Shown here: piece after piece, positions 12,346 to 52,079 of the stretch
Layout: the number at the start of each line of letters is the position of its first letter
Numbering within the stretch: the stretch's first letter is position 1
Source of the DNA: Cheilinus undulatus
Taxonomy: Eukaryota; Chordata; Actinopteri; Labriformes; Labridae
Direction: 5' to 3'
Length of the DNA stretch: 64,000 bases
NCBI RefSeq assembly: GCF_018320785.1
Contig: NC_054872.1
Location: 18,868,769-18,932,768 of the forward strand
Notes under the pieces: generated by a model
What the model was told of the DNA's origin: nothing
Database searches by the model: none
What the model saw: the letters and a program-made list of their open reading frames with translations, nothing else
Position numbers and translations under genes: made by a program

Positions 12346-13448
12346 CCTGACCCTGGCCTGCCCACACAAAAGGCTGGGCCCTGACAAACCCAGTGAATGG
12401 GCCCTCTTCAGCTGTGATTTAGTGATGGAATCAATGCATGTGTTTTGGATCAGCAGCATTGGTGCTAGTGTCCCATTTACCAGTTGCTTCATTTTAAGTG
12501 TGTCAAGCTGTCATTAGGTTCTGATGTTAAAATAATTTATTTGTGCCACTTTTTTAACCCCTTTTCACCACTATTTTGCTCATATATACAACTTTTTCCC
12601 CTTTGACTCATTTTTTTCAACATTTTAACCAATTTTTGCCATTCTTTAACCGCTTTTCACTACTTAATTCAATCATTTTAGCTACTCTTTAACCCCCTTT
12701 CACTAATTTATCTGGCCATTTTTGCCATTTTTATCCCATTTTTGATACTGTTTGATCCTTTTTGACCCATTTTTCGCACATTTGTGTTACCCTTTGGCTC
12801 CATTCCACTGCTTTATCTGGCCAATTTTTGCAACATTTCTGCAACTCTTAACCCATTTTTGCTACTCTTTAACCCCACTTCACCACTTTGCCACGTAATT
12901 TTTTGCCACTTTTAACCCAATTGTGCAATTATTTAACTAGTTGTCCCTTAAAGATGTCTCAGCTCCTTTTTTGTTTTCTGACATTTTTATGTTTGTGGAC
13001 ATCATGGCTTAGCTATGAAGTCAGGCAAAACTTTCCAAGTGGTTTATGTGCACATCCACATTGTTAACATTAGCAAAAAGGTCATTCTGTTTTAATCCAA
13101 TCCAATCCAACTTTATTTGTTAAGCACTTTAAAAACAACCACAGTTGACCAAAGTGCTGTATGGGAGAATAAATAAAAATATATAAAAAACACAGCAGCT
13201 CACAAGAGATAAAGAGAAAGAAAGATAGAGGTTTGCATTTTGAAAAAGGCTACACTTTACTACAGTGTAAATAAATACAATTCATTTGTGTTGCTTTGGT
13301 AAGTGTTACTATTCCAGCTAAATATGAAATATGGTTATCAAAAAAACACTTTACAATGGAGCATGATTTTCCTGGTGTCCATGGGCCCCCCATTTGACTG
13401 GGCCCCAGAAGGCTCTCCCTTTAATCCTCCCTTATGGGTGGCCTTGCC
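12345..13448 (+). repeat. Minisatellite-core interspersed element, copy A
   Basis: Three parts. A 5' block (12350-12540) has GGCTGGGCCCTGACAAACC-like sequence. The core (12540-12950) is degenerate repeats of TTTTTGCCACTTTTAACCCA type. A 3' block ends in CCATGGGCCC...GGGCCCCAGAAGGCTC and TTATGGGTGGCCT. The same three blocks in the same order occur at 25265-26505. A LINE tail is inserted in the 3' block (13097-13230). I know of no autonomous partner. Confidence 0.75.
13097..13230 (-). mobile_element. LINE/SINE 3' tail inserted in element copy A
   Basis: AATCCAATCCAA followed by CTTTATTTGTTAAGCACTTT and an AAAGTGCTGTA block: the reversed tail of a common fish retroelement. A better copy is at 23468-23570. 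Confidence 0.55.
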
Positions 13449-13485
13449 TGACCTGACCTAACCCAACTTATCTTAACATATATAA

Positions 13486-14141
13486 TGTAAATAGTCTTAA
13501 TGTCCCAATTTTAGTTTCCTGTAACAGCAAGAAATAAAATTAGGTGGAAAACATACATTTTATCATAGTATCGATGCAACCTTGATTATTTTTCCTGTCC
13601 CTGGCAGTCAAGTTAAAAGAAGCCCTTAAGGGGACAAGAGCGTTTGTTTCTTCTGATGACTCAATCACTTAAAAAGCTCATGAAGGCAATCTAATTTGTA
13701 AAACTATATATTGCGATACACATGGAACATATTGGCAATATTCTTTTTCCATCCATTTTTTCCAACACTGCTGAGAAACACAGTTTAACTCAAACCAAAG
13801 AGCAAAAACTAAAAGAAATACAAGCCAGAGGAATTCACCAAAATAATTTCTTTCTAAAAAGGACTTTAAAATGTGCTCTTAAAAGACCTTGATTATGCTT
13901 GAAGTACTGAAGCTAGTAGCCAAATTTTTTGTTATATTTTACGTAACACACTTTGCGAGATCAGTACTCATTTAGTCTCTGAGGAGAGGGGGAAGTTTCT
14001 TTCTGTGTCCAGACTTAATTATGGGCTAGTACTGCTCTGAACTAAGGCTTTATTCAGATAGCCCTCACTCTGGCTTTTCTCTATCAAACACACAGCTTAT
14101 ACACCCACTGCTCAGATTTCAGTGACAAGGTAGAAATGAAA
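13486..14141 (+). repeat. Source (or sister) copy of a 650-bp duplicated segment
   Basis: Near-identical to 30392-31045 in the same orientation: a few substitutions and one-base T-run differences over about 655 bases. No terminal repeats or gene are visible at this locus, which suggests it is the original and the other copy the duplicate. Confidence 0.9.
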
Positions 14142-15550
14142 AGAGCCATCTCTTCCTTCTTTAATTGTCTGCTCAGTGACTGTGCTGTGTGTTCAAGTCT
14201 GTGTGTGCTGATGTCATTTATGAGCTGTCTTTCATTAGAGCTATGTAGTAAAGTAGCTAATCCCTGTGTGATGACGAAAGAGAGATCCCAACACAAAGGG
14301 AGTTGTCATGGTGATATATATGAACAGAAATGTCACACACAGACCAGATAAAGAAGGTATTTTGGCTCCTTCGCCAGATGACCCATAGACCAGGCAGTCT
14401 ACTTTGTAATTAAGGCCAAAGAGCTCGCCTTGCCTGTTTAAAATCACCGTGTTTTAAAGGTTCTGGTGTAAAAAAAAACCTTTGGCTGAAAGATCAGACT
14501 GATTGTTAAATCACCCCCTCAACACTCTAACAGCATCACGCCCTTCTCATGTTGCCTGTGAAGAACTACCATGTTTCACTTTGTGTCTGTGCAGTACTTC
14601 CGCTGAGCCTTTACCACACACCTGCATTATAGATGGAGAAGTTTAGACAACAACTAACAACTAGCATTAGACAATAAAGGTACGAGTGCTTGACAATGAC
14701 AGAAATTTTCTTTAAGTAACAATAACATGCTTGCTTAAGAATGGATGAAGTTGCATCTTTAGCTTTATAGCACTGCTATTGGTATAATTAGCATCCATGT
14801 AGCACATTATCTTACCTGATTGTGAGCTATAAAAAACCCATAAGTACAGTGGTAAGTTTTTGCTTGTACTGTATATAAACTAGTCAAGACCAAAAAAACC
14901 CTTACAGTCTCTTGATAGTACAGATTTAAAAAATAGAAACCACTCAAGGTTGCTGCCAACCTTTCTAAACAATAATAGAACTTTCTATCATTTAAGTATA
15001 AAAGTTAATACAAATTTGAGATAGAAATACTGAGAAAAAGCCTTCCCAATTCCTCCCAAATGCAATACAAATACTGGAGCTACAAGACATTGTCTTTGGA
15101 AGTGTTGAACACTGAAAATATTTTGAGAAGCAGTACATGTAGAAATAGGTAAGGAAATAAGACTACCTCCTGTCAACTTTTATGCCTTCAAGGAAATATA
15201 CTCAACCCTTTGAGGGGCTATATAGGGCTTTTCCACAAGTGTCTGTCAAATGAACAGCGGGTGAATCACCTAATCATAGCTGGCTACTTTTTTCCTACTG
15301 TGGACTTAATTGGTTGACCAACAAGTTGTGACTCACAATCCCTGTACATTTTAGAAGCTCTAACTTCTGCAAAAATGTTTGTGTGCAAAGAAAAGATTCC
15401 TGTCCGTCTGTGTCAACCATGTTAAGGTCAGAGAAGAGCTCATGCTTTCAGACCCTCCAGCTGGCTACTTATTTAACAGTGAGGTGCTGCAGAGGAAGGG
15501 TTAATCTCTTTAAAATAAAATGGAGAAAATGCATTGTCTTCAATATAAAC
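14142..15550. other. Non-coding, nothing recognised
   Basis: Only short frames on both strands without family resemblance. Confidence 0.45.
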
Positions 15551-19120: not shown

Positions 19121-19678
19121 CAGTGCTTAACAATTTATTAGACCACCTGTCATATTTATCTCAGAGACCATCCAGGATCATGAAGTGCTTTAATGCGGAC
19201 TCTTTCATTTTCAGTGAGCTCTCCACGTTTTACCATTTTGAACAGGAATGAGAGATTTCAAACTGGATTTACCTTTTTATACCCAAATTTGAGCCAGCTC
19301 ACTGGACTTCTCTGAGAAGTCAGAAATGAATGAAGCATAACATTCAACCACTAAAACTCTTTTTTTTTTTTCTGTTCAGGAATGCAAGTAAATAACTATA
19401 ATTTGACATACTAATCAAGAAATTTTAATGTGCTTTACTATTTTTCAGTTTTTTTGTAAATTAGTAAATTTAAAAAATTCATGGATAACAATAATAATTA
19501 TATTTTAGCATTAAAAATATCATTTGGGTAAAAGAGCTTCTACATATTGGTGTATTAACCATTGGAGAAACATGAAAAATGATTTGGGTAATTACCAGTG
19601 CTGTTCATTTAGGGCAGCTGTGGCATAAACCTTATTTTGGTTAGGGTTAGGGTGGTCTAATAAATTTGTTAAGCAGTG
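19121..19678 (-). mobile_element. Tc1 deletion derivative, family with CAGTGCTTAACAA ends, copy 1
   Basis: 558 bp with terminal inverted repeats (CAGTGCTTAACAATTTATTA left; complementary right end to 19678), flanked by TA. On the minus strand an ATG at 19236 opens M-V-K-R-G-E-L-T-E-N-E-R-V-R-I-K-A-L-H, the helix-turn-helix start of a Tc1-type transposase, then stops; the catalytic part is deleted. Related copies are at 22775-23293 and 29860-31126. Confidence 0.9.
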
Positions 19679-21809: not shown

Positions 21810-24800
21810 GTGAATACATTTTACAAACCGCACTCTTTTTTACGTATACAGTATTTGATTCCTTAGAGATGGTTAAGTGTGATAGTTCTATAAACCTAGA
21901 CAGTAAGACTTTGCCAGCATGGCTTGAATTTCTGCTTTTTGACATAGAAGTGCTATAAATGTTCATTTTATTATGTTGGATGAAAAAAATGTAGTGAGGA
22001 AGAATGAAATATTAGCAATATAACTTTACAAGATGGTCTACCAGTGCCTCCTTGGGTTTTGTTTTTTTCCATATTGTAATATTCTGTCTCGGATACTTAA
22101 TTTCCTAAGAATCGACACAAACTATAGCAAAAGAACATTTAAGAGGAAGATAGTGGAAAATAATTCTTTACAAATAGGCAACACTGAGGTGGGCAACCCT
22201 GGTATAGTTGCAGTCACTCAAATACATTTGCACTGCTTTGTCCCCGTTCTTTTTAAAAAGTTTATTTATAACCACCACCTTTGCATGTGAGGCACTTTTA
22301 CTAGCACACATCTCCTGTAAATATACTGATAAAGTGCAATGTCTCATGTTAAAAGTAAGCTTTATATTGTACTGTTTCAACATTGATCTGCAGCTCCTTT
22401 CTGTTAATACTGTCCTGTACTCCTGCACTCAAGGATGATGATTGTGGCATGCCACCTCATCAATAATAAGCCTTCAAACATGCAGCTCACCTGATGTGAT
22501 TTCTGAATATCTAGGGAAACATCCCAAAAGTCAGGGGATGTTATCTGAATGTGAAATATTGCTTAAGAATACAGTCAAACAGCAGAAATAAAACCTTAAA
22601 CCTTACAGAATGAGATAGGGCTAGATGGCAATTCATTATCCCAACACATCATGCTCTTTTGCTTAACATCTATACACTCATCAGCTGAAATACATGCATA
22701 AACAGGATCCTATAACCATGCATTAAAGGAGAGTTGTCAGAATGAGGGCTGCTGCCTATGAAGGGGCACCACCTGCACTTCATGATGCTGGATGGTCACT
22801 GAGACAAATAAGACAGATGGTCTTATAAATTTGTTAAGCACTGTATACAGTGCTTTAATGCGGACTCTTTCATTTTCAGTGAGCTCTCTACATTTTACCA
22901 TTTTGAACAGGAATGAGGAATTTCAAACTGAATTCATCCAAATTTGAGCCGGCTCACTGGACTTCTCTGAGAAGTCAGAAATTAATCAAGCATAACATTC
23001 AACCACTAAAACTCATTTTCTGTTCAGGAATGCAAGTAAATAACTATAATTTGACATATTAATCAAGAAATAATAATGTGCTTTACTATTTTTCAGTTTT
23101 TTCTGTAAATAATAATTATTATATTTTAGCAATAAAAATATCATTTTTGTTAAAGAGCTTCTACATATTGGTGTATTAACCATTGCAGAAACATAAAAAA
23201 TGATTTGGGTAATTACCAATGTTGTTCATTTAGGGCAGCTGTGGCATAAACCTTACTTTGGTTAGGGTGGTCTAATTAATTTGTTAAGCACTGTATATAT
23301 ATATGTATATATATTACATATGCTTATTACATATGCTTATTAACATGAGCAGAGTTAGAGGGGGAGCTAGTTAAATCTGCAATTTTACAACAAAACATCC
23401 ATGTTCTTTTAATCTGTTGTGTTTTTAAAGATTTTTTATTTAAATGCACCATATCCATCAAAAATGTTCAATCTCAAAAATCAAATCAAAATCAAATCAT
23501 CTTTATTTATATAGCACTTTACACACAACACAGTTGATCCAAAGTGCTTTACAGTAAACAACATTAAAGGCGTTTAAAAAAAAAAAACTCTAAAAAGAAT
23601 CTGTAATCATGTCTTTTGCACAAACTGTTGACATTATAATGTCTGACAACCAGACCACAATTACTTCCTGCCATCTATAAATCAAAAACTCATGATGTTA
23701 TAAATGATGCAGATTATGTAAGTACAGTTGCCTCGGTACTGTTGTCATGGTAACATGCAAGCAAAAACAACTTTCAAGTAAAATTTTTTATCAAACTATT
23801 GTGATAGTTCTTCATTGTCCGGATAGAAACTTAAACTTCATCTTTACTGTGTTATACTGTATCACCACCGTTATTAAAAATAGAACGTCGAGTTTGCTGC
23901 AGAGAACACCAGCAGGAGGCAATATAACTTTCATTATCGATGGCACTGAAGGCTGACTTACCGAGTAGAAGTGATGAAACTTTATTTTTGTATACTGTCA
24001 CAACCAAACTGTGGAGTTTAATTGAATTTCCCTTACATGGTGCACACAAATAGACAGAAAATGACATTTCAAAACAGTATTGTGTATTTCCATGGCATAA
24101 CTTTCACTGGAAGAAAGTCTGTATGTAAACAACATCCTATTTAAATGTTCAGCTTTAAGAACCAGAAACAAGGCTGTTTAGATGCAATATTGGAAATGTG
24201 AAATACAAGTCAGTAATGCTTAATTTAACAAAACTGTTTGCAGGTTTTGCAGGTTTTGCAGAGAACATAACCCCTACCACATGGGATCCGTACTCAGATT
24301 ATTATAGTGGGAACCACGAGGACTCTAGTCCTTGTGAATTTGGGGAGTTGTGGAGTTTTGGGAAGGTGTTTCTGCCCACTTTCTACAGCGTGGTCTTCAT
24401 TCTTGGCTTCATAGGTATGTATTTCATTGTGTGTATGTGTGTGAGAGAGTGACAGAAGAGGGAAGGAGTGAGAGAGACATTTGAGTATGAGCATTTTGCT
24501 ATTTAGCTGTTTTGTTTTAGACTCAAGATGCAGCTTGAAAAGCACTGTCCATTAACAAACATTTCACTTGAAATGCATCATATTTAACTAATATTCTCAA
24601 AAGGTCACATGTTATGAAAAATACACTTTTTCGGGCTTTTCTAACAAAAATATGTGCCCCTGGCCTGTCCACAATCCCCAAGGTATCAGAATCTTACAAA
24701 ATTGAGAAAGTGAAGGAAGTCTGAACACTTTCTAAATGCACTGTTAATATGAGGAATATTTCACTCAAAATGTGTTATGTAGTTTCATTACTCTCCCTCT

Positions 24801-27483
24801 GTGGCTAATAATGACGCCATAGACATCATTACTTCCTGAAGACATGAAGCAGAAGTTAAGTGACAATATGAAAGAAGCTAAGACCCATGTTGTTGCTTAT
24901 GAATAAGAGCATTTTCTCCTTTCGCAGGTGGAGATTTTGGAGCAAATTTAAGAGCATAGCCATTACTCCAGGTACCACTGCACCACTGATAAATTACCAG
25001 AGCTTTTGCCGTATTTTTAGAAAAAAGCTGCCACTTATTAAGACAGCACTGTCTTTATAAATGATAGCGTTTGCTTACACTTGTTGGTATTTAAACACAA
25101 AATATACTGAATATAATATTGGGTTCATAGGACTTCTTTTTTCTGTGGTGCTGAAATTGGTATCCTGTGATTTGTATTAGAATTGTACTGAAGTTTAAAA
25201 ATCTAAAAAAAAAAAAAATAAATAAAAAAATCACCCCTATTCGGCATGATAAGATGTTTTTTTCTGGAGCCAACCAGGCCCGCCCACAGATTGGGCTGGG
25301 TCCCTGAAAAACCATGAGACTGGCCCTTGCTAGTTGAAATTAACTGATGATGTCAATGTATGACTGTTGGATCAGTGGAAGTGGTGCTAGCGTCCATCAC
25401 TGGATTTTGATTTTGGAATTATTTATTCTTGCTACTTTTTAACCCATTTTCACCACTTTAACTGCCTATTTTTGCTACTTTTATCTATTTTTGGCTGTTT
25501 GTTGCCATTTGACAACTACTTTTTGGTACTTTTATTCCATTTTCCCCAGTAATTTTTTACAATTTTTGAAAATATTTTGCCACTTTTTACCCATTTTTGC
25601 AACTTCTTCTTAGCACTTTTATTTTGCTGCTTATTACCCAATTTTGCCACTTATAACCAATTTTTGCCATTTTCATTCCATCTAGTTTTATTTTTGACCA
25701 TTTGTGCAGCAACTTTGCCACTTTTCACCCATTTTCGTGACTTCTTCTCAGTAATTATATCCCATTTCTGTAGCTTTTCCCCATTTTCCACTTTAAACCA
25801 TATTTTGCTACTCTCTGCCTATACTTGCCACTTTTACCCATTTTTGCTGCTTTCTGCCGACTTTTGCCACTTACCACTTTGTACCTGTTTTTGTGACTTC
25901 TTTATGGCAATTTTATTCCATTTACCACTATTTTTGTACATTTTTGCCACCTTTTTACCCATTTGTGCAACTTCTTTTGGCACTTTTATGTTATGTTTGC
26001 TCTTTTTTTCACCTATTTTTGCCACTTTCCATTAATCTTTACCCATTTTTGCTGCTTCTTTGCTAGTTTACATTTGCATTTTTTTTTCACAATGTTGTCA
26101 TTGTTTCTCATTTATGTTGCTATAGTTTTCTATGTGTTTTTCTGGAATCCTTATGTTTGTGTACATAATGCCCTTGCTTTGAAGTCTGACATTACTTTCC
26201 TAATCATTTGTTTCATTATGCCATCTAGATTGTCAACAGCTTCTATAAAAAGATAACTGTGTTTATAGAAAAAGGTGTATACTGTATCTTTAAAAAGGCA
26301 ATATTTTACTACAGTATAATGAATAATTTTTCTTTTTGTTGCTTTGTTAAGAGTGGTCATTTTTCATGTTAAAAACATAAAATATCGTTATCATGGAATA
26401 AATTTACAGTGGACTGGGATTTTGTGGACCTCCATGGGCCTCAAATTTGGCTGGTCCCTAGAGAGCTCTCCCCTTTATCCCCACTTATGGGTGGCCTAAG
26501 GGCCAACCATGCACCCATGAAAACATTCTGGGACAAAGTTTCCCCTTCTCATTATAACTTATGTGCATGCATATTTCTTTCTCTCCAAAGGTAACAGCCT
26601 GGTGGTGTGTGTCCTGGTGATATACCGAAACCAGATCAACCTGACGGACATCTGCCTCTTCAACCTGGCTCTCTCCGACATCCTCTTTGTCCTCACGCTC
26701 CCTTTCTACGCTCACTCCTCAAGGGTTGGTCAGTGGACCTTCGGGAGTTTCATGTGTGCTTTCATCTCAGGCTTGCACAGTACCGGCTTCTTCTGCAGCA
26801 CCTTCTTCATGGTGGTCATGAGCATTGACCGCTACATAGCCATCATTTATGCTCACAAAATGCTTCGATATCGCACCTCGAGGGCAGGTGTCGCTCTGAG
26901 CATGGCTGTCTGGATGCTGAGTTTGGGTGTCTCTCTGCCTGTTTTTATGTTCACAAAGGTGAACGGGTCCCAGGAGGTTATGTGTTACTACGACCCAGAG
27001 ATGGATGCTTGGAAGCATTATAACATCTTCACCACGAACATTCTGGGGCTTCTTATCCCTTTTTTGGTCATGATTGGTTGCTACTCCAGGATCATCCCCA
27101 TACTGATGAAGATGAAGACCACAAAGAAGCACCGTGTGGTCAAACTCATCATTTCCATCATGGTGGTCTTTTTTGTTTTCTGGACCCCGTACAACATTTC
27201 CCTCTTCCTAAAATTTTTAAAGTCTGTACTGCCCGGTGACGTGTGCGAGGTGGAGGAGAATGTAAGGCTCGCAGTAACAGTGACGGAGACATTAGCTTAC
27301 ACTCACTGCTGCCTGAACCCCATCATTTATGCCTTTGTGGGACAGAAGTTCATGAGGCGGGTATTACAGCTGCTTAAAAAGTGCGTCCCATGGATTTCTC
27401 TGTCCTCTACTTGGAATGATCCAGATAGCTCATTCAGGAACAGCACCAGGTCATCGGAGGTCGTCTCCACTCTTGTTAAGTAG
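21803..27483 (+). CDS. Chemokine receptor 1 of the cluster (CC/XC-type GPCR), 3 coding exons
   Basis: Class A GPCR expected to bind chemokines at the leukocyte surface and signal through Gi. Proposed exons: 21803-21809, 24262-24414, 26591-27483, giving 350 residues, usual for the family. Seen directly: acidic, tyrosine-rich N-terminus; Cys27; TM1 ending G54-N55; D83 in TM2; ECL1 W-T-F-G at 102-105; Cys109; D-R-Y at 133-135; CYYDPEMDAW in ECL2; FWTPYN in TM6; Cys in ECL3; NPIIYAFVG in TM7; Ser/Thr-rich tail. The intron after TM1 splits the Gly codon (phase 1) with clean sites: ATAG|gtatgt and ctccaaag|GTAAC. The second and third exons are firm; the 7-nt first exon is inference. The loop after DRY (IAIIYAHKMLRYRTSR) departs from the common LAIVHAV form. 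It could be a CCR1/3/5-like, XCR1-like or fish-specific CCR; I cannot choose without a tree. First of three same-strand receptors. Confidence 0.9.
22775..23293 (-). mobile_element. Tc1 derivative copy 2, with inverted end, in receptor 1 intron 1
   Basis: Body and right end match copy 1. At the left, about 70 bases of the element end lie in inverted orientation (22775-22843), separated from a second end (CAGTGCTT at 22848) by TATA, a head-to-head junction of two element ends. A further terminal stretch is missing between CAGTGCTT and TAATGCGGAC. Confidence 0.8.
23468..23570 (-). mobile_element. LINE/SINE 3' tail in receptor 1 intron 1
   Basis: CAAATCATCTTTATTTATAT and AGCACTTTACACACAACACA then AAAGTGCTTTACAG: the reversed tail of a widespread fish retroelement, ending in repeated CAAAATCAAAT. 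Confidence 0.65.
24598..24975 (-). mobile_element. Partial, inverted copy of the TTAA-flanked MITE in receptor 1 intron 2
   Basis: AGGTCACATGTTATGAAAAA and AAATATGTGCCCCTGGCCTG then TCCACAATCCC match the complement of the right end of the element at 29225-29788. Only this end is clear; the distal boundary is approximate. Confidence 0.55.
25265..26505 (+). repeat. Minisatellite-core interspersed element, copy B, in receptor 1 intron 2
   Basis: Same order as copy A: CCCGCCCACAGATTGGGCTG block, then a core of about 650 bases of TTTTTGCCACTTTTACCCA-type units, then a 3' block with TCCATGGGCCTCAAATTTGG and CCACTTATGGGTGGCC. A 152-residue frame in the core is low-complexity and not a gene. It ends less than 100 bases before the exon at 26591. 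Confidence 0.75.
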
Positions 27484-29224: not shown

Positions 29225-29788
29225 AGGGGACATATTTTACCCTTTTAAGACAAGTTTATATTGTTCTCAGGGGTCCCCAAAACATGCCTGTGACGTGTAT
29301 TGCTGAAAAACACTCCAGTATTGGATTTTTGCATGTCTAAAAATCCCTCTGTTTCAGCCCTGCTCAGAACAAGCTGTTTTTGTGGTTTTAAATGGATGCA
29401 GGAAATGAATGCAGCACTCCTGATGTTACAGACACTTTTATCCAAAGTGGGACCTGACTGGGATTTGAACCACTGTTCTCCCAGACTGCAGTCTGCAGGG
29501 TAACCCACTGAGTATCCAGCATCTCGGCTGAAAACTGACAGGATCAGTAGAGGAGGATGTAACCTTTCTCCAAGTGGGGGAGGGCCAACCATAACCTGGG
29601 GGCAGGTGCTTACACCCCATGTGAGGTCACTAGGTATAAAATCTGAGAACGGCTTGTATCAGCACACATTTCCTGAAAGGTGGAGAAAGAGGGTGGGAGA
29701 GGGAATGGATTTTTCTGGTACTTGATGGGATTGTGGACAGGCCAGGGGCACATATTTTTGTTTGTGATTTTTTCATAATATGTCCCCT
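29225..29788. mobile_element. TTAA-flanked MITE with an internal tRNA-like retroelement fragment
   Basis: TTAA at 29221-29224 and 29789-29792 flank inverted ends AGGGGACATA...TATGTCCCCT. The TTAA duplication is piggyBac-like; no transposase is present. Inside (29420-29525) is a block (CTTTTATCCAAAG, GGGATTTGAACCAC, CAGTCTGCAGGGTAACCCAC) that looks like a tRNA-related repeat inserted into or carried by it. Confidence 0.75.
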
Positions 29789-29859
29789 TTAAGTTCGACT
29801 TTTTCCACCTACTGTATCAACTAAAGCATGGTGATAAAACACACCCTTCTTTGGATATA

Positions 29860-31126
29860 CAGTGCTTAACAAATTTATTAGACCACCCTAACCAAAGTAA
29901 GGTTTATGCCACAGCTGCCCTAAATGAACAGCAATGTAATTACCAAAATCATTTTTATGTATCTGCAATGGTTAATACACCAATATGTAGAAGCTCTTTA
30001 ACCCAAATGATATTTTTAATGCTAAAATATAATTATTATTGTTATCCATGAATTTTCAAATGTACTGATTTACAAAAAAACTAAAAAAATAGTAAATCAC
30101 ATTAATATTTCTTGATTAATATGTCAAATTATAGTTATTTACTTGCATTCCTGGACAGAAAATGAGTTTTAGTGGTTGAATGTTATGCTTGATTAATTTC
30201 TGACTCCTCAGAGAAGCCCAGTGAGCCGGCTCAAATTTGGGTGAATCCAGTTTGAAATTCCTTATTCCTGTTCAAAATGGTAAAACGCGGAGAGCTCACT
30301 GAAAATGAAAGAGTCCGCATTAAAGCACTTCATGATGCTGGATTGTCTCTGAGACAAATATGACAGATAGTCTTATAAATTTGCTAAGCACTGTAAATAG
30401 TTTTAATGTCCCAATTTTAGTTTCCTTTAACAGCAAGAAATAAAATTAGGTGGAAAACATACATTTTATCATAGTATCAATGCAACTTTGATTATTTTTC
30501 CTGTCCATGGCAGTCAAGTTAAAAGAAGCCCTTAAGGAGACAAGAGCGTTTGTTTCTTCTGATGACTCAATCACTTAAAAAGCTCATGAAGGCAATCTAA
30601 TTTGTAAAACTATATATTGCGATACACATGGAACATATTGGCAATATTCTTTTTCCATCCATTTTTCCAACACTGCTGAGAAACACTGTTTAACTCAAAC
30701 CAAAGAGCAAAAACTAAAAGAAATACAAGCCAGAGGAATTCACCAAAATAATTTCTTTCTAAAAAGGACTTTAAAATGTGCTCTTAAAAGACCTTGATTA
30801 TGCTTGAAGTACTGAAGCTAGTAGCGCAATTTTTTGTTATATTTTACGTAACACACTTTGCGAGATCAGTACTCATTTAGTCTCTGAGGAGAGGGGGAAG
30901 TTTCTTTCTGTGTCCAGACTTAATTATGGGCTAGTACTGCTCTGAACTAAGGCTTTATTCAGATAGCCCTCACTCTGGCTTTCCTCTATCAAACACACAG
31001 CTTATACACCCACTGCTCAGATTTCAGTGACAAGGTAGAAACGAAATTCGCATTAAAGCACTTCATGATTTTAGATGGTCTTTGAGACAAATATGACAGG
31101 TGGTTTAATAAATTTGTTAAGCACTG
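29860..31126 (+). mobile_element. Tc1 derivative copy 3 with 650-bp passenger and repeated right end
   Basis: A complete derivative with both ends (29860-30393) is followed at once by 30394-31045, a near-identical copy of 13486-14141, then by a second copy of the element's last 80 bases (31046-31126, from TTCGCATTAAAGCACTTCAT to CACTG). All parts share orientation, so the mosaic is bounded by two Tc1 ends. The M-V-K-R-G-E-L-T start of a transposase is readable on the plus strand near 30280. Confidence 0.9.
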
Positions 31127-31774
31127 TATATATTTTGCAGTTGTGATTGTTCAGGGTGATCTGACGTGCATCATCACCTTCTGTCTCACTTCTACTATTG
31201 TTCTAGTGCTACATAATGCCCCTTCTCTTCCTGCTGACATAAATGGAAACCTCACAGTGCTTAAAGGGGTGAAAAAAAAGGTAACTGAAACTTTGTTGCT
31301 CTCGTTTGCACCAGGCTGTAACCACAATGCTTGCTAGTCTCTACAGAACATGTCACTGCACTTATTCCTTTTCACACATTCACACTTTTGGTGATGAGGC
31401 TACACATTGGTAAAAAACACACCCCTACAGTATTTTGCTTAAAAGCTGCACAATTTTAGAGGAGGAAAAATACCCTCAGGATTGTTTTTATAACGTTGCA
31501 GCTTTGAAGGGAAATGATGACTCAAAGTTTCAAATATAAACGTTAAGGAAAGGGTTGTTTAGCACCTTGTGTAAACAGAATTTAGTGTGCTGTTATAGCA
31601 AACTTATCAAAAATACGTTTGTGTCATCCTGTTTTATTTCCTCAATGTTTTAACTCATTTTTCTACGTACAGTTTATGTGATGTATTCTGTATTTACAAT
31701 TTGTGTTTTCTTAAAATTTTCTTTTTTTTTTTTTTTTTTTACGTTTACTGAATATAGATTTTGCCTGATGCACC

Positions 31775-38364: not shown

Positions 38365-41346
38365 ATGAGCGAACCAGAGAATGAATCGTATTTTTACAAC
38401 TACCAGTATGATTATAACTCCACCAGCTGTGATCAGGACTCCAGTCCAGAGTTGTCTGCCAGAGCCATGCTGATCCTTTGCTATGTGCTGTTTTGCCTGG
38501 GTCTGCTAGGTAAGTCTTTAAAAACTTGATTCCCAAATGTGTGGACCTTAGCTTTTAAAGGATAAAGCAAATATTCTATTATACCATTGTTTTCACAGGT
38601 AACAGCACTGTTATCTGGGTTCTTCTGAGATATATAAAGCTGAAGAGTATGACGGATGTGTGCCTCCTCAGCCTCTCTTTTTCTGACCTCATACTGGCTG
38701 TTTCCCTGCCACACTGGGCTTACAACTCCCAGAGCCTCACATCATGCAAAATGATGACAGGAATCTATCAGGTGGGTCCAAACCTACTTTATTTATTCAT
38801 AACAGTTCAATCACAAAAGAAAAAAATAATCAGAGCAAATCCTCATACCGGACAAATTTAGACTTCTATTTCAGGACCAAAGTTAAACTGAGTAGAATCA
38901 CCTTTGCTCCTGACTCTGGTCTCTATGTGTAAGTCAGATCATCCAGAGGGAACTCAGAAGTGCTTGATGAACACCTCTTGATGTTAACATTGATAAATCT
39001 CTTTTAAAGTCCCTACAAGTTATTTTGGAGAAAACGTGAAAACACCGAGATCTATGTGGGCTGAATTTTGAATAGACTGTTAAAAAGTTTTTCACCATTT
39101 TCGTAGCTAGGTTTAATTCAGGCAGGACAAATATAGGGACCCATGAGTCCATGGGGCACTTTAGGGAATTACCCCACCTGCTACAGCTATAAAAAACCAC
39201 AAACAGTTATTTTTCTATATAATATGCTGTTAGCTGGTGTCTGTGCCTTCATTAAAGAAGCCAGGCTGCGCTGGTCATAATTAACCATAAGATCAAGGGG
39301 AAAGCTGATTGCTGGAGTACTTGTCTATTTTTCGCTTGAACAAGGTGAAGCAGGAACAAACATCTTACCTGCTGAAGGTGTGTTTTAATCCATATTTCTC
39401 TTGTCTTTATTCCTGGATAATTAAAAGAAGCAGACTGTGGCTTTGACTCTCTCAAAGCAGCCTCAGTTCAATCGCTTATGTCTGTGTGGTGATGCTAAAT
39501 TTGAGGGAAGTATCTGCTGATAGGCATGTTCTATTCCTTCCAAGTTTGTCACAATAAAAGGCCCCAAATGGTTATCATCTTTGAAGACTTATATTTTGAA
39601 GAGCAGTATTAAGAAATTGAGTGTTTTTAGCTGCAACTTAACAACAAAACTTCTCATAAATGGAAGAGAAACAACTTCACATAACTCAGCTGGGATGTTA
39701 AAAACAGGATGATGCAATGCAACATAGTAGCTTGGCAGACAGATGGTTCCTCCATTCATGATGTCGCTTTTTTTTTTTTTTTAAGCCATCATATCTTTTG
39801 TGAGTGGGAGTGGCTTCAACGACACGCCTACACAGTCCTAGAGCACATACTATTGCCTCATTTTTTCATGATTTTGAAGCTAAATTTCATAAACTTAAAG
39901 ATTTTTTTCATGAATGAAATTTGGCCGACTGGTTCATAACACTGTGGCATGTTATACCTCAAACCATAAACACTGTTCCCCACTTTACAGGGACTTTAAA
40001 TATTTCAAATCTTTTTCTCGTATTTTATTGAGTCCATTATTCCTTTGTGCTGATCTATTGGTATGGTGATCTCACATGATAAAAAAACAGGCTGGGAAAT
40101 ATTGTTAAACTCTGCAGAAAGATTGTTGGCACTGACTTGAATGATCTTGGCCATGTTGTTCAAGTTGAGACTCTCTGCATGCAGAGTTTAGATTTCTGCC
40201 TTGAGGGATGAGGTTTACTTATGTCAGGAGGGCCAAATCGAACAGACACCTAAGGTCAATTGCTCGATCAGCTGGTGGGTTTTTAAATGGCGCTACTGTC
40301 TCTAGTCTTAAGACTGTCAGAACTGTGTATTGACTCTCACTGCTTATCTGTCATGATGAAATCCATGGAAGTTATGTATTAAGTACAAAATTGGCTTAAT
40401 TACATTAACTCCCATTGTTGTATCTTGGCAGCGCAGCAGTGAAGGTTTCCCACTACCACTGTAAACTTTGCACATCTTAAGCCCCCCTTTTGCCATGCTG
40501 TTCCTTAAATTTCATCATTTTGGTTTCCATATTAGCCTGGGGTCCCAAACAGTTCCCTCCCTTCCTACAGGCAAACAGCGCCTCTTGCTGTCACATTACG
40601 TCCTGACTTTGTTCTTCTTCTGTTCCTCCATACAGCTGGGTTTCTACAGTGGCACTTTGTTTGTGACTCTCATGAGCGTGGATCGCTACCTAGCCATCGT
40701 CCACGCAGTTGCAGCCATGCGAGCCCGAACGCTTCGCTTCGGTATCACAGCCAGCATCGTCATCTGGATAATCTCCATCGTCATGGCCATCCCTCAGGTG
40801 GTGTTCGCCTCCTTGGAGACGGATGAAGAGAACCGCTCTCAGTGCCAGCCACTGTATCCAGAAGACTGGCAGTTTTTCTGGAAGATGCAGAGAAACTGGA
40901 GTGAGAACTTGGTCGGGCTCTTTCTTTGCCTCCCCATCATGATCTTCTGCTACATGAAAATTCTCCTTGTTCTATCCAAGGCCAGGAACTCCAAAAAGGA
41001 GAAAGCTGTGAGGCTGATCTTTGCCATAGTGTGTCTGTTTGTGGTATGCTGGGTCCCTTACAATGTCACAGTTTTCCTTCAGACGCTGGAGCTGCTCAAA
41101 GTTCTAAACACCTGCAAGGCCTCGACAGCTATCAGCAGCGCCATGGGTTTTGCTGAGATCATTGCGCTGTGTCACTGCTGTGTCAACCCAATCATCTATG
41201 CCTTTGTAGGGGAGAAGTTTAGAAAGTCCCTGTGCACCATGCTAACAAGGTGCCTGGGGTTGAGGCAATGGAGAGGAATGACTCCCAGCACCAAAGACAC
41301 CACAGAGAAAGAGACATCAAACACACCTGTGAGGTCAGAGTATTAG
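38365..41346 (+). CDS. Chemokine receptor 2 of the cluster (CCR-type GPCR), 3 coding exons
   Basis: Exons 38365-38509, 38599-38771 and 40636-41346 make a 342-residue seven-helix receptor. Splice sites: CTAG|gtaagt and ttcacag|GTAAC (phase 1, in the TM1 Gly-Asn, the same place as in receptor 1), then TATCAG|gtgggt and catacag|CTGGG (phase 0, at the start of TM3). Visible features: N-terminus ESYFYNYQYDYN, a good tyrosine-sulfation type ligand-binding stretch; Cys22; N50; D78; Cys98; D-R-Y-L-A-I-V at 122-128; sequons NRS and NWS in ECL2; CWVPYN in TM6; NPIIYAFVGEKF in TM7; Ser/Thr/Glu tail. Oddity: between the TM2 Pro86 and Cys98 there are 11 residues rather than about 16-17, and the W-x-F-G motif of ECL1 is absent. 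A continuous frame starts in the intron at 40468, but the acceptor at 40635 marks the real exon. CCR family is certain, subtype is not. Confidence 0.92.
38772..40635 (+). other. Intron 2 of receptor 2
   Basis: 1.86 kb, phase 0, GTGGGT...TACAG, at the ECL1/TM3 boundary. No transposon ends recognised inside. Frames within it are not conserved. Confidence 0.85.
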
Positions 41347-48170: not shown

Positions 48171-51100
48171 ATGGCTGCAGCCTTCTCTGCTTCGAGTGCC
48201 TTTGATGGTTCAAGTGTGAACTCATCTCTTGACAACATAAGGTAAGACCTAACTGTCATCATCACACCTATATCACTGCTTCTGTCAGTCCATGCTTTGC
48301 TGTCCTCATCTGTTTTCACTTGTGTTGTTTTTGTTCATTCATGACCTAGTTTAGGATTTGATCAGATAGCTGAACACTCCGGTTTCCAGTCTGGCATCCT
48401 TCTCCCAGAGTGTTTGTTCAACTGACATGCATTAGTCGTGTTGCTTCACATATGTTTGGCACTGTAGTCCATTTTTGGCTCTGTTTCATGGAGTTGTTCG
48501 CATGTTCTAGGAGATCTGATCTCAGGTTGGCAGCCTTTAGTACAGGATTAGCGCAACTCAGACGCATAAAGAGACAACATTTAGAGGCGGTCCGGGAAAC
48601 ATCCACCCACATTCTTGGCAGTGTGAACACATTTTGTAAAAACAAAAAAGAAAAAAAAATCTTTGAGTTATTGTTGTAATGCATCACTGGAAAGATTTGA
48701 AAGTTTTACTGTAGCTGTAACAATCAGTCTGGTTCCTCATACTAGCTGACTCAACTTCTACTTCAGCTTTACTTCATTGTCCTAAAGGGGAAATTTGTTT
48801 TACAACCATAAAACATGTAAACAACGTAGATATATATGCATAGGTACAAACAAACAAAAGATTTACCTTCAAAAACCTGCAGATTTATCACCACATGAGT
48901 GGTCATTTGACTGAAAGAACAATCTATTTCTTTAACTATGTGCAGCAAATTTAGGTGGCCTGCTGTGATGCCTGTCAGTTATTTCCTGTATACTGAAGTG
49001 AGTGGAGGATGCTGCTGCAGTACTTCGAAAATATTGAAAAATAAGCACTTTTAGAATTATAATTCATTTCCTAGCAAGTGTTTGGGTTTGCTTCTCTAGG
49101 TCCTACCAACATTTTAAAACTGCACACGCCATTGTAATTTATTGTCTCATCTTTATTTTGTTAGACAGGAAGGGCTGAGCCCCATACTTGAGCTACACAA
49201 ACAGAAAAATCTATTAAGTAGCAACAAAACATGAGGAGCATATAAAACAATAGTGCAGTAATGCTCTGATGCAGCAAAAACCGCTGCAAAAACCACTTCC
49301 ATAATGTCCTGACGTCATTAAGTGACACTCAGTCATGCTGTGTTCTGTCACGATCAGAAGCAGGAACCCGAGCAGATCTGATATCTACACCCAGAATCAC
49401 TTGTAGTCAGGAAAACAGGGTCAAATAAATTGTACTGGTGTAATGTCCACTTGTAGTTGTCCACAGCAGAGCAGATTCTGAGTTCAGTTTGAAGCAGCAG
49501 ACTGATCATCCTCTTCCCTGCTAATCTGGTATAAAAAAAAAAAAAAAAAACTGCATGAGCTGCATCTGTCAACAGAGCCACTCTCTTTACTATCAGATAT
49601 GTTCCATAAATCTGGTGTCATAAGCCCTATTGACACGGGACAAGTATTACCTTGGGACATCTGGTAATTTGTAATTATGGCGCAGGATGTCTGGGTGTTT
49701 AATCCTGTATGAATTGGAGTAAAACTTTCAGAGATATTTACCTACAATTCTAATATTAGCTGTGTGCCAACTGTACATGCAACCTGTTGGAATTAAAATT
49801 GGCTAGCATTCATTGTGTGTGCCGCTGCTTCATTGTTCAAAGCAAATGTGAAATGGTTGAAACTTGCTAAAAAGTGATCATAATGGGCAAATACATCTTG
49901 ATTATACAGTCTACAAAATGGGCAAAATGTGGCCAAAGAGAGATAAAAACGGGCAAAAAAAAAAAAAAAAAATAGTGGCAATGGGCAAAAAATCACAAAA
50001 CAAAACAAAAGTTCAGAGTGGGGTTGCATTTTAAGATTTTCAGTTTTTACGTGTTAAAAAAGGGCTAAATGGATAGGAAAATGGTGAAAACAGGCAAAAA
50101 GTAGTGACAATACATATTAGGGATCATTTGAACCCAGTAATAACTTGTTTATACAGTATAAAGCTGGCAAAATTACACCAAAAAGATGAAAACAGGCAAA
50201 GAAAATTGTGAAAATAGGGCAAAAGTGGCAACAAATTTTGGAAGAAAGTTCAAAGTGGGGGAAAAAGTGGAGAAAAATGTTAAATGTAAAGAAAAAGGAT
50301 GAAAATTGGTAGGAAAATGTCAAAAAATAGGCACAAAGTAGTGATAGGAAATATTAGGGATGGTTTTAACCCAGAAATAACTGAAATATACAGTCTAGAG
50401 TTGACAGAATGGGTAAAATGATGTCAAAAAGTGATGAAAACAGGCAAAAAATATTAGAAAATGGGCAAAAAGTGGCAAAAACTGCCAGAAAGTTCAAAGT
50501 GGTTACAAAAAGTTTGAATGTCAAAAAAGAGCTGAAAATGGTGAAAAGGGAAAGATAGAAATAATAAAGATTAGGGATCATTTGAACCCAGAAATTTCTT
50601 GATTATACGGTCTAGAAAATGGGCAAAATGTGTCCAAAAAGTTATAAAAACAGGCAAAAAATGGTCCCTACTGGCAAAAAAAAAAAAAAAAAAATGCAAA
50701 AACATTGACAGGAAGTTCAAAGTAGGGGGGGAAAGTGACAGAAAATTTTTTAAGTGTTAAAAATAGAAGCCTGAAATTGGGTAGGAAACTGGTGAAAGGC
50801 ACAAAAATAGTGATTATGGAGATTTGGGATCATTTGAATCCAGTAGTACCTTAAAGTCTACAGCTCACATACAAGGCAAAGACATGTTACACGTTCACTG
50901 ATATATAGATTACAATTACAACTTTTAATACATCCTGTTGTCTGAAATATAGCAGTGATCTGAATCATTCTGTTTCATCTGTATGTGTTTCTCCTCAGCT
51001 CCACCACAGCATCCTTCTTTGACAACTTCACTGAATACCCCAGTTATGACTACCCTCCTGACACCTTTGAGCCTTGCCGTTATGGGCGACATGCCGCCAC

Positions 51101-52079
51101 TTTTCTTCCCATCCTGTACTCCATATTCTTCATCGTTGGCCTTGTGGGTAACTCTCTGGTCATCTGGGTCATTGTCTGTGGTGTTCGTCTGCGCAGCATG
51201 ACCGACGTATGCCTCCTGAACCTGGCTGTCGCTGACCTTCTCCTGGTTTGTTCCCTTCCCTTCCTCGCTCACCAAGCCCGGGACCAGTGGCAGTTTGGAG
51301 AACTCATGTGCAAAGGTGTTCTGAGTATTTATTACATCGCTTTCTACTGTGGGATCTTCTTCATCAGTCTCATGAGCATCGACCGATACTTGGCGATAGT
51401 GCACGCTGTTTACGCTATGAGAGCACGGACGAGGTCGTTTGGAATGATTGCAGCTGGTGTTACATGGCTGGCTGGAGTTTTGGCATCTTTCCCTGAGCTC
51501 ATCTACCTCAAACTGCAGCATGATGTACACAATATGACGTACTGCTACCCAGATTTTCCAACAAGTTCTTCAGATGAATCCAGCACGGATACATATCACT
51601 TCTGGAGGGTGTTCAGCCTCCTCAAAATGAACATTTTAGGCCTTTTAATCCCTTTCATCATGATGGTTTTCTGCTACTCTCAGATCATCTGGAGGCTGCT
51701 GAACAGCCGCTCCTCCAAGAAGCCGGCCATCCGTTTAGTCGTCATCGTGGTGGCAGTTTTCTTCTGCTGCTGGGTGCCCTACAACATCACAGCCTTATTC
51801 AGAGCCCTGGAGTATCTCCATATTTATGCGGGATGTGAGAGCAGCCAAGCCATCCTCATAGCCCTGCAAGCCACCGAGGCCGTGGCTTACTCCCACAGCT
51901 GCCTCAACCCATTCCTGTATGTGTTTGTTGGGGAGAAATTCAGGAGGCACCTGCTGAAGCTGGTCAACAGGACTCCCTGCAGACTGTGTCAGGCCATCAA
52001 GGTGTATCTGCCTCAGGACAGAAGTGGATCAGCGTACTCTCAGACCACCAGCCTGGATGAGAGGAGCACTGCTGTGTGA
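48171..52079 (+). CDS. Chemokine receptor 3 of the cluster, CCR4/CCR8-like GPCR, 2 coding exons
   Basis: Exons 48171-48241 and 50999-52079 give 383 residues. The intron is phase 2 (AAG|gtaaga, ctcctcag|CTCC) and lies in the extracellular N-terminus; unlike receptors 1 and 2 there is no intron in TM1. Features: Ser/Thr-rich N-terminus with NSS and NFT sequons and sulfatable tyrosines, Cys50, N75, D103, W-Q-F-G at 121-124, Cys128, D-R-Y-L-A-I-V at 152-158, FCYSQII in TM5, CCWVPYN in TM6, NPFLYVFVGEKF in TM7. The middle (ASFPELIY, LKMNILGLLIPF) and the tail (SGSAYSQTTSLDE) resemble vertebrate CCR4, hence the tentative subtype. ECL2 carries a Ser/Asp-rich stretch. A TATAAAT at 48128, about 43 bases before the ATG, could be a core promoter, or ttcccag at 48153-48159 could be an acceptor for an upstream leader exon. 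Confidence 0.93.
48242..50998 (+). other. Intron of receptor 3
   Basis: 2.76 kb, phase 2. Its second half is the tandem repeat at 49850-50880. The first half, including an 89-residue frame on each strand at about 48410-48690, has nothing recognised. Confidence 0.85.
49850..50880 (-). repeat. Tandem array of about 235-bp units built of minisatellite core
   Basis: A marker, TTAGGGATCATTTGAACCC and variants, recurs near 50117, 50352, 50571 and 50823, with a weaker start near 49875; spacing about 220-250. Within each unit are AAAATGGGCAAAATGTGGCC-like subrepeats in the orientation of copy C. It ends about 120 bases before the coding exon at 50999. Confidence 0.75.

Follow-up and report, generated by a model that had tools for sequence, protein, structure and literature searches.

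How does a small transposon come to enclose DNA from elsewhere on its chromosome, and does the resulting unit move? The question is raised by a locus in Cheilinus undulatus, where a Tc1-type MITE is joined to some 650 bp with a near-identical counterpart 17 kb away and then to a second MITE 3' end. The genome that we examined comprises 1.17 Gb in 46 contigs, and the window, i.e. the whole 64,000-nt stretch under analysis, corresponds to C8:18868769-18932768; other coordinates are positions within it. Of the 58 reading frames listed in the window, ten long ones were scanned, and three of these are seven-transmembrane receptors (26521-27483, 40465-41346 and 50964-52079, the last nearest to CC chemokine receptors), and the window is part of a chemokine-receptor cluster, that is, of a vertebrate immune-receptor cluster.

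Anatomy of the composite

All parts of the composite lie on the + strand. The left TA of the insertion site (29858..29859), placed from the sequence and by flank scoring, is followed by a complete Tc1-derived MITE of 534 bp (29860..30393), which runs from its 5' terminal repeat to an inner 3' terminal repeat. Next come the TA of the MITE/passenger junction (30394..30395), which with the preceding TG forms a TGTA overlap with the source, the captured passenger of 651 bp (30396..31046), present at two places in the genome, and two bases, TT, foreign to both source and MITE (31047..31048). The structure is completed by 78 bp from the 3' terminus of another MITE copy (31049..31126), with variants unlike those of the inner end, and by the right TA of the insertion site (31127..31128). 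The outer inverted repeats span 33 nt and are 97% complementary, five flanking bases included.

The putative parental segment, with its TA, occupies 13488..14141 on the + strand and has no MITE adjoining it. The passenger matches 13490-14141 in the same orientation, from which it departs by 11 substitutions and a single internal indel of 1 base, further gap columns being edge effects of the range chosen for alignment; identity is 98.2% over 656 columns when counted from 13486, and source and passenger measure 654 vs 653 bp with the TA included. The order MITE, passenger, MITE 3' end in one orientation, proposed in a preliminary description, is borne out by sequence and alignment, and base-by-base comparison confirms the near-identity of source and copy that it had reported. 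Its view that a Tc1-type element has here acquired host sequence is likewise supported.

The match is no coincidence: when the window is compared with itself (E <= 1e-20), no repeat exceeds the passenger in length, the remaining repeats being MITE pieces and one 142-bp pair (85%). On its left the composite is flanked by an abundant repeat (29400 to ~29800; 3368 candidates, best 40 scored), and on its right by sequence that is single copy in the genome (31129-31700). An abundant interspersed repeat, unrelated to the MITE, also lies beside the source (12900-13450), and shows no likeness to 29400-29800 at the same threshold in the window self-comparison. It ends at ~13450, 36 bp before 13486, and is absent from the passenger copy; a plain segmental duplication carrying that repeat is therefore not indicated.

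The MITE family and the two 3' ends

The element at 29860-30393 is an ordinary high-copy MITE of Tc1 type. It has the features expected of Tc1/mariner MITEs, namely a TA target duplication, terminal inverted repeats, many copies and no room for a transposase gene. A genome search with a query two bases short at each end gave 2450 first-look candidates, of which the best 40 were scored, all of them near full length (matched stretches of 529-541 bp). Inside the MITE, 28 codons remain from the beginning of a transposase reading frame (30277..30360, + strand), a remnant that matches Pfam HTH_38 (E 2.4e-6; 27.6 bits, cut-off 27) and, below cut-off, positions 1-28 of the Sleeping Beauty profile HTH_SB (E 0.016); the 3' repeat begins directly after these codons. 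DNA folding gave a weak hint of hairpins (z = -2.7), and a literature search with 25 letters of the terminal repeat returned no match in the collection searched.

Two further copies of the family are found in the window, both on the - strand: one has both ends present (19121..19678), and in the other (22775..23293) positions 1-470 are followed by the last ~67 bp inverted (CACTG-TATA-CAGTG). A tree of 41 copies is nearly star-shaped, with two of 38 inner branches well supported; the 29860 MITE forms a supported set with four copies from other loci, and the three window MITEs do not fall together, an argument against the whole elements having arisen locally from one source. The variant 67G was considered as a private local variant of these three and rejected as such, as it has 123 exact matches genome-wide; it occurs in none of 38 sampled copies. 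Six of the 123 lie within 204 kb (C8:18803555-19007261), a clustering whose p-value is biased, the region having been inspected after three of the six were known. With the three 67G loci that lie beyond it, the window has nothing but MITE sequence in common, and segmental duplication was rejected as the cause of the local MITE cluster on the same grounds, three 4-kb stretches having been compared. In another variant of the family, seen at four loci (L054, L068, L071 and L073), the first 45-59 bp recur as an inverted copy after positions 1 to ~479, so that the terminal repeat is lengthened.

The preliminary description had taken the final segment of the composite for the last 80 bases of the same Tc1 over again. 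It is 78 bp long, and when the inner end (30316-30391) is aligned with the outer one (31049-31124), 10 of 76 positions disagree, far more than between passenger and source (11/~654; Fisher p=1.2e-5). Two MITE copies therefore contributed the two 3' ends, as judged from the sequences themselves. That the outer segment simply repeats the inner MITE end is rejected in view of these differences and of the distinct variants; of the earlier picture of a Tc1 element joined to a captured segment with a duplicated end, the structure stands but the duplicate does not.

Relative to other copies, the inner end carries 485T, 508A, 510A, 515T and 525C, and the outer end has changes of its own together with 490T, which numerous other copies also have. 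When a 30-mer of the inner end was searched with up to two mismatches, its sole other match in the genome was the MITE at 22.8 kb in the window, and a related exact pattern likewise occurs at two genome places. The inner end and that of the 22775-23293 MITE have these rare variants in common, yet they differ at 5 of 67 positions (92.5% identity), so that the MITE at 22.8 kb is not, on this comparison, an obvious immediate donor. Among the matches listed, the nearest to the outer end are four copies with 96% identity over 80 bases; genome searches with the end sequences named no donor for either 3' end. The excess of differences at the 3' end of the 534-bp MITE (5/76 vs 11/454, p=0.064) falls short of demonstrating a chimeric join within it.

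Insertion ends, switch points and the origin of the composite

Flanks of family members can be used as indicators of which ends belong to the insertion. In a first set, 29 genome copies provided 58 sides, of which 50 were kept after the 8 without TA had been dropped, and these reveal a strong preference for TA-YAT, with A right after the TA on a single side of the 50. A second set of 30 sides, from which matches <400 bp and sides short of the element end had been dropped, is weaker but points in the same direction (A after TA on one side of 30). The left flank at 29858 (TAT) falls at the 94th percentile of the first set and at the 43rd, i.e. average, of the second; the corresponding values are 78th and 87th for the outer right flank (TAT), and 4th and 10th for the inner right flank (AAT). 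Since the outer flanks fit TA-YAT and the inner AAT fits it poorly, the outer pair (29860, 31126) probably represents the original insertion ends, and the inner junction more likely reflects a template switch, despite its MITE-TA appearance.

Both putative switch points show overlaps. At the entry, TGTA is common to the source and to the MITE end with its TA, and an overlap of at least 4 nt was obtained in 916 of 200,000 random draws of source position from the 3 kb around the source. The preliminary description was right that sequence is shared here, but its 9-nt TGTAAATAG counts the passenger's own first bases. At the exit, AAATGAAAAGAG in the source faces AAATG-AAAGAG in the MITE, a likeness that may be summarised as AAATG[A]AAAGAG, and two filler bases follow in the copy; the GAAA noted earlier near this point is thus present but is part of a longer similarity. 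Similarity as good was found in 112 of 20,000 random pairs of 24-mers, the exit window having been picked with the junction already known. The exit breakpoint is internal, at MITE position 457 of 534, and the entry breakpoint lies exactly at the terminus.

With regard to age, 16 of 530 positions in the 29860 MITE depart from the family majority, which is itself biased towards this very MITE because the sampled copies are those most similar to it. A capture as old as the MITE insertion would predict ~6% divergence between passenger and source, and 1.7% is found (p=4.6e-8); if all the passenger changes are assigned to the copy branch, the comparison (11/654 vs 16/530) is not significant (p=0.17). 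An appearance of youth could also result from constraint on the passenger or from later gene conversion, the two copies being 17 kb apart.

The explanation that we prefer, with a probability of roughly 0.6, is that a resident Tc1-type MITE underwent gap filling or template switching, which would make the composite a single-copy Pack-TIR. A MITE would have inserted at 29858, its true ends being 29860 and 31126, and would later have suffered a break or a replication stall. During repair, in the order and direction that we propose, the growing strand would have run along MITE sequence through a 3' terminus (the inner end, 30393), changed template at the TGTA overlap, copied ~650 bases of the DNA lying 17 kb upstream and rejoined MITE sequence at the AAATGAAAGAG motif, with two additional bases left behind. 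Because the inner and outer 3' ends differ, either one or the other would have been copied from another MITE of the family. Transposition of the composite would be unnecessary. The distance from source to composite, 16.9 kb start to start on the same chromosome, agrees with the cis bias reported for Pack-TIRs (PMC8277862). Counting against gap filling is the left breakpoint exactly at the terminus, which recalls a transposase cut.

In an alternative explanation, the TA at 13488 received a MITE in some haplotype, and this MITE, along with the 650 bp on its right, was subsequently copied into the 29860 MITE via their homology. Such an insertion would produce the inner junction exactly as it is, MITE-TA-source, and a duplication at C8:18.804 and 18.817 Mb (L073 and L074, see below) does carry a MITE with neighbouring DNA. 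However, the source TA is followed by AAT, the kind of site that is rare in both flank sets, and in the assembly the source is empty, with no MITE match nearby; we consider this origin unlikely. Alternatively, two MITEs may have stood side by side and a break between them been patched with 650 bp from nearby, so that the outer ends would not stem from one insertion. This would account for two ends of different variants, other MITE copies are present in the window, and at L074, 82 kb off, two same-orientation MITE pieces lie 430 bp apart. Against such a pair, which seems to us quite improbable, a second MITE piece was found in the flanks of only one of 40 other genome copies, and that one inverted, and the inner right flank fits the target preference poorly.

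The passenger is present in the genome at two places only, source and composite (two candidates, both scored), and among the matches listed in a search with 12900-14700 (best 40 of 5346 candidates) this pair alone lies to the right of ~13450. An independent high-copy repeat, one of the possibilities that the preliminary description had named as speaking against capture, is rejected as the nature of the passenger, and two copies alone are what that description had taken in advance as the mark of a one-off event. We found one composite in the 1.17-Gb genome and no sign of its multiplication; an active composite is rejected, and mobility is not indicated. The earlier suggestion that the unit could in principle move as one agrees with its anatomy (97% outer repeats, preferred flanks), but a single composite was found in the genome. 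An aberrant transposition, either by reading past the MITE end or by a composite formed elsewhere that then hopped (end bypass or FoSTeST), would be in keeping with the 97% complementary outer inverted repeats, the preferred target site and the TA on both sides. It is nevertheless improbable: the composite is single copy, the right border of the source has no MITE end, and multicopy cases far from their parents are the ones read as transposed in PMC8277862. Of the two routes named in the preliminary description, template switching is favoured over aberrant transposition. Finally, the junctions do sit in a high-copy repeat, but that the assembly joined reads from different MITE copies is very improbable, given the passenger's own 12 differences from the source, the unique right flank and a chromosome-scale assembly (46 contigs, this one of 54 Mb).

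Comparison with Pack-TIRs and local recurrence

Tan et al. 2021 (PMC8277862) report 370 Pack-TIRs in 100 animal genomes, including 115 of TcMariner type, and eight cases in zebrafish. They attribute most single-copy cases to gap filling, since the parent is often near on the same chromosome (<15 kb away in 56.9%), microhomology is present and capture followed insertion of the element; breakpoints are mostly inside the element and close together, at a median of 4.6% of its length. As in the Pack-TIRs defined there, our composite consists of non-TE DNA between ends of one TIR element family, has a unique best parental copy (98.2%, the criterion being >=90%, with a length ratio within 80-120%), and that copy is not beside a TIR element of the flanking kind, no MITE match being found near 13.4-14.2 kb. 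With the single-copy gap-filling class of that report it has in common the single copy on the same chromosome and near its parent (16.9 kb, just beyond the 15-kb proximity class), microhomology at both breakpoints, and a capture apparently later than the insertion of the element. It departs from typical cases in that report in that its left breakpoint is exactly at the MITE terminus and in that it has the 3' end twice, from two MITE copies. A conservative catalogue filter of that report (no TE <=100 bp of the parent), which is not part of the definition stated there, would also have excluded it on account of the repeat ending 36 bp from the source. The composite is thus best read as fitting the Pack-TIR definition, within the single-copy gap-filling class.

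Other systems resemble it less. At rice transposon excision sites, foreign filler DNA of 1-123 bp is reported (PMC4423477); there too filler is copied during repair at a DNA transposon, whereas the composite keeps element sequence on both sides and its filler is 651 bp. Plant Pack-MULEs, as described in PMC8277862, also have TIR ends flanking captured host DNA, but they belong to the Mutator superfamily and about a third are multicopy by transposition, unlike this single copy of Tc1 type. A literature search judged on titles and starts of abstracts brought up no closer case than the Pack-TIRs. The capture event is real and ordinary in kind, with hybrid ends that are mildly interesting, and the composite is probably a repair scar of a kind known from other animals rather than a new mobile element. 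It illustrates cleanly how nearby DNA can be shuffled by small transposons within a vertebrate immune-receptor cluster, and its unequal ends allow target-site preference to separate an authentic end from a repair-made one, an inexpensive test that could serve for other Pack-TIRs as well.

A second MITE-bounded duplication lies ~82 kb to the left of the composite, at C8:18.8165 Mb (L074, C8:18815500-18819500). Here 266 bp of one MITE and 13 bases are followed by a segment of ~845 bp, made up of ~415 bp of other DNA and positions 1-426 of a MITE. The counterpart of this segment is 12.9 kb away at C8:18.8036 Mb (L073, C8:18802000-18806000), with 97% identity in the interval and 93% over the whole segment; other matches in this search were short pieces (best 40 of 139 candidates). 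That MITE-to-MITE ectopic repair serves as a local duplication engine in the chemokine-receptor cluster is a tentative and rather doubtful idea, and two examples are insufficient to establish a local process. A broken MITE would invade another MITE of the family, copy past its terminus into unrelated DNA and return by microhomology, and the products would be the hybrid ends, the rare 3'-end variants shared with the 22.8-kb MITE alone, and the second duplication ~80 kb off. If such recurrence were true, it would suggest that MITE clusters act as seeds of small segmental duplications. In the one copy of 40 noted above for a second, inverted MITE piece in its flanks (L044:783-1580), that piece is truncated and abuts a complete MITE, terminus against terminus (CACTGTACAGTG).
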